Shown piece after piece: positions 15,600 through 21,251 of a stretch of DNA of 36,210 bases (position 1 is the first letter of the stretch; each line of letters opens with the position of its first letter). The notes beneath the pieces are model-generated. The model saw only the letters and a list, made by a program, of their open reading frames with translations, had not been told where the DNA came from and ran no database searches. The stretch is from Maribacter sp. GTDB lineage: Bacteria > Bacteroidota > Bacteroidia > Flavobacteriales > Flavobacteriaceae. The stretch spans positions 1-36,210 of the forward strand of contig JAAETN010000470.1 in NCBI GenBank assembly GCA_024228355.1. The letters run 5' to 3'. Both the position numbers and the translations under genes were made by a program.

Positions 15600-15834
15600 T
15601 TAAATATTATCCCACTTATAAAAACCAAATATCAAACCCTTAATATCCATAAACCATCCGTTCACAACTTTGGTGTATAATTCGCTTGTTTTAGTTGTAC
15701 TATGTCCTAAGAGAAGTTGAATATGCTTTATGATGCTACTATTTTCTAAAAAAATAGGTCGAAAAACCATGCCTCAGTATATGCGGGTGTTTTTTTGGCA
15801 GTATTTGTTTTAATGATTGCGATAGGCTGGCAGG
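15600..15834 (-). pseudogene. Frameshifted C-terminal relic of a tyrosine recombinase
   Basis: In the minus strand one frame reads KQILPKKHPHILRHGFSTYF and, after a run of seven A (plus strand 15748-15754), a second frame reads LENSSIIKHIQLLLGHS, TTKTSELYTKV and on to a stop at 15600. Removing one base of the run joins them into the typical XerC/D-like catalytic end: Arg in HILRH, His in LLGHS and the nucleophile Tyr in ELYTKV. The N-terminal two thirds of the enzyme are missing; homology stops at the repeat unit that begins at 15835. So this is a dead integrase. The remainder of 15466-16110 contains the upstream promoter and a repeat unit, with nothing recognisable from 15983 to 16110. Confidence 0.75.
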
Positions 15835-15982
15835 CAGGATTACCTACGGTTTTCCTTTACGTTCGCCTTAGCAAATAGAAAACCACGGGCTAACGCCCCG
15901 GTCCCTTGCTTTTCTCCAAAGCTTCAAACTTCGTTTGGCTTTTCAGAAAAACAAAAAACCACGCTTCAAAGAGCATGGTTTT
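15835..15982. repeat. Structured repeat unit R1, beside the integrase relic
   Basis: Begins with the 24-base core CAGGATTACCTACGGTTTTC (continuing CTTT) shared with units R2 and R3, which can fold as AGGA/TCCT around ACC/GGT. Then come a short hairpin GGGC/GCCC (15887-15898), a hairpin CAAAC-TTC-GTTTG (15925-15937), and a terminator-like hairpin AAAACCACGC/GCATGGTTTT (15955-15982). GAAAACCA at 15878-15885 can also pair with TGGTTTTC at 15976-15983, enclosing the inner hairpins. GATTGCGA at 15815-15822, one base off the tRNA-Arg 3' end, precedes the core, separated by a GC-rich insertion. Confidence 0.6.
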
Positions 15983-16110
15983 CAAATGCATTATGGTGGT
16001 GTCAGTGCAATCGTATTGAGGCCATTCGGATACGTTAAATGAACTCGAGTAGAACATCCTTTATGTGAAGATATCATGAATTCGATTACTGACATAATCC
16101 AGAAAAGGAT

Positions 16111-20096: not shown

Positions 20097-20708
20097 TAAA
20101 AATTTCTCTTATTAAAATATTTAGTCTCGGAAAACGAACCATTTTTGAGACGTTTGAAATCGTAGATTATCAATCTTGATTGTCCCAATTCCTTACCAAA
20201 ACTTTGCGCATGGATCCTGTTTCGATTTTATAGTGTTCGGGCAGATAAGCGTTAAGTAAAATCGAAATAGGGGGCATTCTACTTTACATTTTTTATTTCC
20301 AGATTTTTCTTTTGTAACCATTGAGAGCAAGATGTCATGACAAGGGCACATCCTGAAATTACCGCCCGAAAGTTCATTCATGGCGACTAGGATAGTAGAC
20401 TCCCCTGTTTATAGGGCTTTCCAAGGTCGACTATCCTAGTGGTTTAAGATTTTTCAGGTTAGTATTCTTCACTTAATTTTCGGAAATCCTTTATTTATAA
20501 GGGTTTGCAAGTCTTTGAAACGTAATAACATCGCTTTAGCGTGTTATCCTCTTGCTATCCCTTTCTTCGCATAAATACATTGAAAGGAATACCCAGAGCT
20601 TTTAAGCTCTTAACAATTATCGGCCTTTGAATTCAATAAAAAAGATGCCTATTTAGGCTAAAAATTGTTAAAATTTGAGAAATTTTGGGGCGTTTGCAAA
20701 TTGTTTGC
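20097..20708. other. Gene-free stretch with two long inverted repeats
   Basis: No convincing gene on either strand. It holds an inverted repeat TTTCGATTTTA (20220-20230) / TAAAATCGAAA (20257-20267), a longer one at 20386-20400 / 20426-20440 (ACTAGGATAGT arms plus GAC, one mismatch, 25-base loop), and small palindromes such as AGAGCTTTTAAGCTCT near 20598. The rest is AT-rich and unremarkable. Confidence 0.5.
20386..20440. repeat. Long imperfect hairpin
   Basis: Arms ACTAGGATAGTAGAC (20386-20400) and GTCGACTATCCTAGT (20426-20440) pair over 15 positions with one mismatch. A short T tract follows on the plus side (ATTTTTC at 20449-20455). It may be a terminator or a recombination-site relic. Confidence 0.5.
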
Positions 20709-20745
20709 AAAAAAAAAGTCCCAGAAGTATTGAAACCTCTGAGAC
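20709..20745 (-). terminator. Rho-independent terminator at the end of the tRNA/repeat array
   Basis: In minus-strand RNA the stem GTCTCAGA (20745-20738) pairs with TCTGGGAC (20725-20718) with one U-G pair, followed directly by nine T (20717-20709). It closes the minus-strand unit formed by tRNA-Arg and repeat units R3 and R2. Confidence 0.75.
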
Positions 20746-20758
20746 CCTATAGATACTG

Positions 20759-20922
20759 GTGATCGCGACAGGATTACCTGCGGTTTTCCTTTGTGCTCAA
20801 TGTTGCAATTAAAAAACCACACAAGGCGCTGCCTTGTTACTTTGTATTTCCCTTCATTTATGAAAGCCTGAGCTTTCAACACTTTAGAAAATACAAAACC
20901 ACGCTTCAAGGAGCATGGTTTT
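20759..20922. repeat. Structured repeat unit R2
   Basis: Opens with GTGATCGCGACAGGATT (20759-20775), identical to the 17 bases at the 3' boundary of tRNA-Arg. The shared core with one change (ACCTGCGG) follows, then hairpins ACAAGGC/GCCTTGT (20821-20837) and GAAAGC-CTGA-GCTTTC (20862-20877) and a terminator-like hairpin AAAACCACGC/GCATGGTTTT (20895-20922). AAAACCA at 20813-20819 can compete for the same TGGTTTT arm. Confidence 0.65.
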
Positions 20923-20931
20923 CTGAGTGTA

Positions 20932-21093
20932 GTGATCGCGACAGGATTACCTACGGTTTTCCTTTGCTGTCCCATGTGAAAATAGCAAGTCCGACTGTCA
21001 ACCAGTCAGTTTTGGTTTCGTTTCAAGATCCCAAAACTTCGTTTTGATCTTTCCACAAAACAAAAATCCATTCCTTTCGGGAATGGACTTGCT
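20932..21093. repeat. Structured repeat unit R3
   Basis: Opens with the same 17-base tRNA-Arg 3' end (20932-20948) and core to 20965. Hairpins GACTG/CAGTC (20993-21007) and CAAAAC-TTC-GTTTTG (21032-21046) are enclosed by a 9-bp stem AGCAAGTCC (20984-20992) / GGACTTGCT (21085-21093). The last part overlaps the terminator hairpin of the tRNA. The stems differ in sequence from R1 and R2 yet keep order and pairing. Confidence 0.65.
21057..21087 (-). terminator. Terminator of tRNA-Arg
   Basis: Minus-strand stem TCCATTCC/GGAATGGA (arms at 21080-21087 and 21067-21074, loop CGAAA) followed by TTTTTGTTTT. It begins 14 bases after the tRNA 3' end. Confidence 0.7.
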
Positions 21094-21101
21094 GCTTTAA
21101 G

Positions 21102-21175
21102 TGATCGCGACAGGATTCGAACCTGTGACCGTCTGCTTAGAAGGCAGATGCTCTATCCAGCTGAGCTACGCGACC
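21102..21175 (-). tRNA. tRNA-Arg(TCT)
   Basis: Full cloverleaf on the minus strand: acceptor GGTCGCG/CGCGATC, D-arm GCTC/GAGC, anticodon stem TCTGC/GCAGA with loop CTTCTAA giving anticodon TCT, T-arm ACAGG-TTCGAAT-CCTGT, discriminator A. CCA is not encoded. The 3' 17 bases are repeated twice downstream (R3, R2), and the 5' 12 bases are repeated upstream at 21232-21251. Confidence 0.95.
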
Positions 21176-21251
21176 TTGTTGCGGAGCGAAGCTGCCTGTC
21201 CGCCGTATACGTCTTAGACGGAGGAGGAGGAAGCTACGCGACCTTGTTGCG
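21164..21251. repeat. 20-bp direct repeat duplicating the tRNA-Arg 5' end
   Basis: AGCTACGCGACCTTGTTGCG occurs at 21164-21183 (start of the tRNA plus 8 bases upstream) and again at 21232-21251. The 48 bases between hold a GC-rich, partly palindromic insert (CCTGTCCGCCG near 21195, GACGGAGGAGG near 21217). Confidence 0.7.

Follow-up and report, generated by a model that had tools for sequence, protein, structure and literature searches.

Short structured units at the ends of tRNA and tmRNA genes in Bacteroidia as candidate gene-less integrative cassettes

Short structured units located at the ends of tRNA and tmRNA genes form a family that is present in more than a third of the genomes sampled from one bacterial family. 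We lean towards the view that these units, about 115-200 bp long and with a conserved fold, are non-coding, non-autonomous integrative cassettes that carry no genes, and that they are probably moved in trans by the tyrosine recombinases of islands using the same attachment core. If mobile, they would to our knowledge rank among the smallest integrative elements known, and would illustrate how tRNA ends turn into docking sites for cassettes beside islands; if they are a functional RNA instead, they would constitute a widespread tRNA-trailer RNA.

The array behind tRNA-Arg(tct)

The window, by which we mean the whole stretch of 36,210 nt analysed here (Maribacter sp., contig JAAETN010000470.1), contains two adjoining units. 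In the sense of the tRNA-Arg(tct) gene, the order is gene, R3, R2 and then a hairpin with a T-run (Table 1). The original prediction had both units starting with the 17 bases of the tRNA-Arg 3' end, at spacings of 173 and 169 bp. The spacings are exact, and the 17-base end does head a 35-nt block common to R2 and R3, which is 97% identical; the orientation has to be reversed, however, because the tRNA gene is on the minus strand, so that R3 and R2 lie downstream of it and each unit ends, rather than starts, with the tRNA-end copy. The 14-nt core that is repeated consists of the T-stem 3' strand, the acceptor strand, the discriminator and the next base.

Table 1. Positions of the tRNA-Arg(tct) gene, the units and associated features in the window
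Feature	Position	Strand	Basis or remark
tRNA-Arg(tct) gene	21101..21175	(-)	ARAGORN; Rfam tRNA 72.2 bits
14-nt core, GTGATCGCGACAGG on +	21101-21114		inside tRNA-Arg(tct)
Unit R3, class B, tRNA-proximal, 169 bp	20933..21101	(-)	covariance model built without R3
R3 hairpin H1, terminator-like, directly behind tRNA	21062..21088	(-)	sequence; model match
R3 tail, 14-nt core copy 2	20932..20945	(-)	13/13 versus tRNA end
Unit R2, class A, 173 bp	20760..20932	(-)	covariance model, E 2.4e-39
R2 hairpin H1, terminator-like, exclusive with closing helix P1	20896..20923	(-)	covariation analysis
R2 tail, 14-nt core copy 3	20759..20772	(-)	sequence repeat
Hairpin and T-run past last core	20709..20749	(-)	sequence
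Unit R1, class A-like, 5' truncated	15828..15991	(-)	covariance model, E 8.6e-17
Partial duplication of tRNA-Arg 5' end, 68-bp, upstream side	21164..21251	(-)	sequence

R2 (fold z of -4.5) is one of the five sequences on which the covariance model described below was trained. R3 is not, and was nevertheless matched at 70.8 bits with an E value of 1.1e-14 in a search of the whole genome, from which it follows that classes A and B have a common architecture. The third copy proposed originally, R1, is genuine; it lies 5 kb beyond the R3/R2 array, has no start motif, and its tail copy can be read as interrupted by 12 bp. Another contig of the same genome carries one further partial unit with a core copy in front of it. 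The hairpin past the last core is probably the original terminator of the tRNA, pushed away by the units, since in a relative that lacks units a simple terminator immediately follows the tRNA.

Neither R2 nor R3 has an integrase gene inside, and both are too short for one. The single ORF of at least 100 aa across them (105 aa) extends from R3 across R2 and on into the far flank; we rejected it as a gene because it spans both units and flank and because the fold accounts for the conservation. Just upstream of tRNA-Arg(tct), the two copies of the 68-bp duplication (21164-21183 and 21232-21251) may represent an analogous unit on the 5' side. Similar 5'-side tRNA duplications are visible at two other loci (L032, L042).

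Extent, position and fold of the family

With the two window units as queries, blastn gave matches in 52 of 397 genomes of the same family, the window's own genome included. Sixteen class-A units were aligned without structure (alignment A1), and five of these, with a hand-derived structure, were used to build a covariance model. This matched in 148 of the 397 genomes (E <= 0.001) and in 35 of 395 genomes drawn across the Bacteroidia class (E <= 1e-5), five of the 35 belonging to the window's family; both tallies are lower bounds because stricter search filters were applied. Shorter classes (C and E, assigned by eye and named by us) gave weak matches to the model or none, and tandem arrays, again as judged by eye, mix unit classes. 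A separate pattern scan of named genomes yielded 15 stretches, with carriers including Zobellia uliginosa, Croceitalea dokdonensis, Aquimarina brevivitae and Ulvibacterium marinum as well as Maribacter, Robiginitalea and Allomuricauda MAGs; a same-strand tRNA lay upstream in 8 of the 11 stretches viewed. The family is therefore not an artefact of one MAG. No match to the window's units was present in the phage or plasmid collections; the only pattern match in a viral contig (L294) was judged to be due to chance, as it lies inside ORFs with no tRNA just upstream.

The original prediction had envisaged a covariance-model search of flavobacterial genomes and of Rfam, with Flavo-1 as a possible relative. 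Further copies were indeed found in flavobacterial genomes, and their helices are not broken; neither in the window nor at the 20 loci scanned did any Rfam family reach threshold on a unit, and permissive filters over 20700-21110 gave only five sub-threshold matches (E 0.06-0.69). Flavo-1 (RF01705), an RNA, is like the units flavobacterial and structured; it matched none of the units in the window or at these 20 loci, and its one sub-threshold match fell elsewhere in L089. No description of the family was present in the accessible portions of the literature surveyed, which included the structured-RNA surveys PMC8040213 and PMC11109978, subscription papers being mostly out of reach.

The covariance model covers nothing upstream of the unit, and position was assessed at 80 family loci chosen down the E-value list of the same-family search, loci already sampled being skipped. 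The top unit was directly behind a same-strand tRNA or tmRNA called by ARAGORN at 55 of these; 9 others were 5-700 nt behind such a gene, in arrays, 7 were behind a T-arm box, and the last 9 were, by eye, behind a bare core copy. At 25 loci outside the window's family the corresponding figures were 20 direct, 3 near and 1 behind a T-arm box, with 1 placed by none of the rules. The targets were tRNA-Arg (acg, tct, tcg), Phe, Val, Ser, Ala, Pro, Met, Leu and Lys and tmRNA, with the unit on the gene's strand.

Copying of the tRNA end was assessed in non-redundant model matches of at least 130 nt, 84 of 162 of which abut an ARAGORN gene. The last 13 nt of the adjacent gene were copied with at most three mismatches at 53 of the 84 abutting units, exactly so at 37, and the copy lay at the model-defined end of the unit in 52 of the 53; the other 31 had no matching tail. 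Shuffled tails explained none of the 53 matches (none at p > 0.05); this control was run with one of the three end points that the tRNA may have, and multiplying the p values by three changes nothing. Among the 48 units with at most two mismatches, identity was 44-48/48 at positions -13 to -1, by choice, 36-44/48 at -16 to -14, 41/48 at +1 and 3/48 at -17; as these units were picked for matching, the information lies solely in the fall just beyond the core. Behind tRNA-Arg, tRNA-Ser and tmRNA, bodies that resemble one another end in different tails. The suggestion that these are tiny non-autonomous elements at the tRNA end is thus well supported, as the tails follow the local tRNA.

In a column scan of the alignment with no structure given, P1 and H1 emerged as the two strongest covarying helices. 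They have one 5' strand in common and are therefore mutually exclusive, in agreement with the two alternative folds proposed originally. The compensatory change also proposed there was borne out, with 7 of 10 pairs in P1 and 4 of 8 in H1 changed on both sides among the 16 class-A units. The covariation score of each helix was reached in 0/500 shuffles, while a weaker measure, the number of further pair types, was reached in 136/500 (P1) and 25/500 (H1). In a model-fitted alignment of 74 distinct rows (E <= 0.001, with the five training sequences and some weak reverse-strand matches among them), changes on both sides were found for 44 of 45 pairs, pairing holds in 93.2% of cells and the covariation score was reached by no shuffle; the unfitted pair counts are the safer ones because this alignment is fitted to the structure and includes training sequences.

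Over the 84 units abutting a tRNA or tmRNA, the mean folding z was -6.0 in the sense and -5.5 in the antisense direction, so the fold is not due to chance; the sense value was the lower in 56 units (p 4e-4). Structure is present on both strands, and is slightly stronger in the sense of the tRNA. The strand signal from G-T versus A-C pairs is weak: over all pairs the counts were 173 versus 70 (A5) and 210 versus 57 (A4) in two model-fitted alignments, P1 in the same alignments showed no G-T bias (18 versus 24 and 30 versus 21), and the unfitted A1 gave 4 versus 7 for P1 and 6 versus 0 for H1. In the model-fitted alignment, the arm of the terminal hairpin that pairs with the T-stem strand (helix 9) changes together with the tail, as in AAGA/TCTT in L031 and GGAGG/CCTCC behind tmRNA in L089.

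Turnover and islands at the same core

We compared 13 loci containing the symporter that adjoins tRNA-Met and tRNA-Arg(tct) in the window; at 4 of them a tRNA-Arg lay within the flank examined. At this locus the window has two units of different classes. Within the same genus, G032 is unit-free, with a simple terminator; in G404 there is a single unit of a third class, accompanied by a near-copy of that genome's own, differing tRNA end; and in G258 part of a third-class unit is visible, cut by the contig end. The tRNA-Arg(tct) end reads CCTAGTGCCATCA in two same-genus genomes (L221, L222) as against CCTGTCGCGATCA in the window; within the genus, an apparently single tRNA thus varies widely in its T-stem and acceptor 3' strand. 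Because the tRNA-Arg end of two of the compared genomes differs from that of the window, identity of the locus rests on the tRNA-Met/symporter neighbourhood. Most near-identical copies sit next to each other at a single type of tRNA. Of the nearest-neighbour pairs, the most similar one from one genome that spans two different tRNA genes reaches 79% identity, so jumps between targets look old or rare.

These comparisons bear on the main rival to the cassette reading, namely that the units are a resident structured RNA which serves the host as a tRNA trailer, either as a terminator or as a read-through RNA affecting tRNA processing; it would pass down together with the tRNA, tandem duplication would raise its copy number, and its tail would be a functional mimic of T-arm and acceptor. 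We consider this rather unlikely. A resident RNA would fit the dense compensatory change, the mild sense-strand bias of fold stability, the terminator-like H1 at a fixed place and the prevalence of tandem neighbours among near-identical units, and many tRNA-Arg(acg) loci do share one neighbour, a putative apt (30 loci, several being one place twice). Set against it are the occurrence of a unit-free allele and of other classes at one locus within a genus, the mixing of classes in one array and the presence of one fold behind many different tRNAs and tmRNA; moreover, tandem duplication alone puts no tRNA-end copy behind the first unit. For a non-coding RNA produced by read-through, which the original prediction had entertained, the mild sense-strand preference speaks in favour and the terminator-like hairpin right behind the tRNA against.

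Some units are displaced, lying behind a bare copy of the core instead of a tRNA gene. Five of at least 13 such units seen, those fitting two degenerate patterns, were followed up; with the pattern reversed as a control, a single match turned up across the five genomes, in G096. All five had an intact tRNA or tmRNA with an identical 14-nt core upstream on the same strand, at distances of 4.9 kb (G198), 15.4 kb (G032), 18.1 kb (G069), 27.2 kb (G042) and 43.4 kb (G096), which implies an island between gene and displaced unit. Each island has a tyrosine recombinase near one end, confirmed by Pfam (Phage_integrase and Phage_int_SAM_5), beside the distal core in G198, G032, G042 and G069 and beside the tRNA in G096. 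The boundaries of the island repeats are those of the unit tails; a recombination system for exactly this core therefore exists beside the units. The island of G032 lies between the tmRNA and the structured unit. Taken with the differing unit content at one locus in the genus, the use of the same core by these islands strengthens the attachment-site reading of the original prediction.

The G032 tmRNA island (L302) carries type I restriction-modification genes in addition to its recombinase. At six other loci (L017, L018, L021, L035, L129, L215) only the 3' half of tRNA-Arg precedes the units, the arrangement that an island integrating at the anticodon loop would leave at its end. An all-against-all comparison of 1079 flanking ORFs (179 loci, some being one place twice), aimed at a shared mobility gene, returned mainly neighbours of particular tRNAs; the clusters included tyrosine recombinases in 21 loci and GIY-YIG proteins in 9.

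Cassettes, relics or transposons

On the cassette reading, each unit would be bounded on both sides by the core from the 3' part of the tRNA or tmRNA gene. Insertion directly behind the gene would keep the tRNA intact; the inserted unit would supply its own terminator-like hairpin, H1, and push the old tRNA end and terminator to the far side, and repeated insertion would give rise to mixed tandem arrays. A passenger of a recombinase needs no conserved fold of its own, so this model leaves the fold unexplained. We infer that the unit depends on its fold, in RNA form or as single-stranded DNA, in order to move or to be maintained.

Integron cassette arrays are likewise mixed tandem units, each with a foldable recombination-site hairpin, at a fixed site. 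The units share with integron cassettes the mixed tandem arrangement, an end in a recombination-site-like hairpin and a fixed anchor; they differ in having no genes and in being anchored at a tRNA gene, and inspection of alignment A1 showed the attC box GTTRRRY to be absent at the conserved unit end, GGTAATCC. A tentative proposal, which we regard as doubtful, is that the units form an integron-like cassette system without genes, Bacteroidia-wide, in which folded single strands are the substrate of tyrosine recombinases at tRNA and tmRNA ends. The two exclusive folds, together with the terminal hairpin pairing with the T-stem strand of the tRNA, would form the docking substrate; recombinases would dock, excise and shuffle the units, and the newest cassette would repeatedly supply the tRNA 3' end.

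MITEs and REP-type repeats are also short, structured, non-coding and present in many copies. Unlike these, the units are tied to tRNA ends and their repeat copies the tRNA end. The closing helix P1 is an inverted repeat, and no cognate transposase was noticed on incidental inspection.

In the way they work, the units are like integrative elements at tRNA sites and like CIMEs. Islander islands have tRNA or tmRNA targets, a regenerated tRNA with a displaced 3' fragment at the far end, and tandem arrays, and the Islander filters include an integrase-gene test (PMC4383910). The units resemble such islands in target genes, regenerated tRNA with displaced 3' fragment, and tandem arrays, but at about 115-200 bp they have no integrase; this means that they are not islands, and we infer that the integrase filter as described there would drop them. 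CIMEs have no integrase of their own, have attachment sites on both sides, accrete beside active elements and are presented as elements whose integration and transfer genes have been lost (PMC5704250). The units share with them the attachment sites on both sides, the lack of integrase and transfer genes and, for five units, a place beside islands of like specificity. Unlike CIMEs as presented there, they are one homologous family with a conserved fold across many genera and tRNAs, and they could be filed as CIMEs only together with a parent element.

That the units are relics, the attachment regions of decayed islands whose hairpins were kept only as terminators of tRNA transcripts, would suit the 31 tails that do not match and the hairpin with a T-run seen by eye right behind the tRNA at several of the five island left ends, yet is improbable because unrelated islands would not leave one multi-helix fold with nearly every pair changed on both sides, and because H1 alone would be enough as a terminator.

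We attach an equally small probability to transposition with a 13-14-bp target-site duplication, in which a nuclease would read the T-loop box and cut at a fixed offset and the unit would be copied in. This would explain why the tail is the local tRNA end even where related bodies meet different T-stems, and candidate drivers exist in units with a GIY-YIG ORF, which are also found in tandem at tRNA genes. However, the tyrosine-recombinase islands have the same core boundaries, so that recombination already accounts for the repeat. GIY-YIG as driver of the structured units was rejected: the GIY-YIG units duplicate other, larger parts of the tRNA, and the domain occurs in 59 of 60 genomes, so that its presence does not discriminate.

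The GIY-YIG units themselves, of about 334-406 bp, lie behind tRNA-Leu, Phe, Val, Met and Arg (L079, L080, L081, L082, L084, L085, L069), several of them in tandem, and end in a copy of the 3' part of the tRNA or in a complete pseudo-tRNA. At L083 and L088 (10360-10744) they are instead upstream of tRNA-Arg(tcg) and tRNA-Arg(acg), respectively; these upstream units begin with a copy of the tRNA 5' half in which the D-loop carries an insert. L088 has structured units as well, downstream of the same tRNA.
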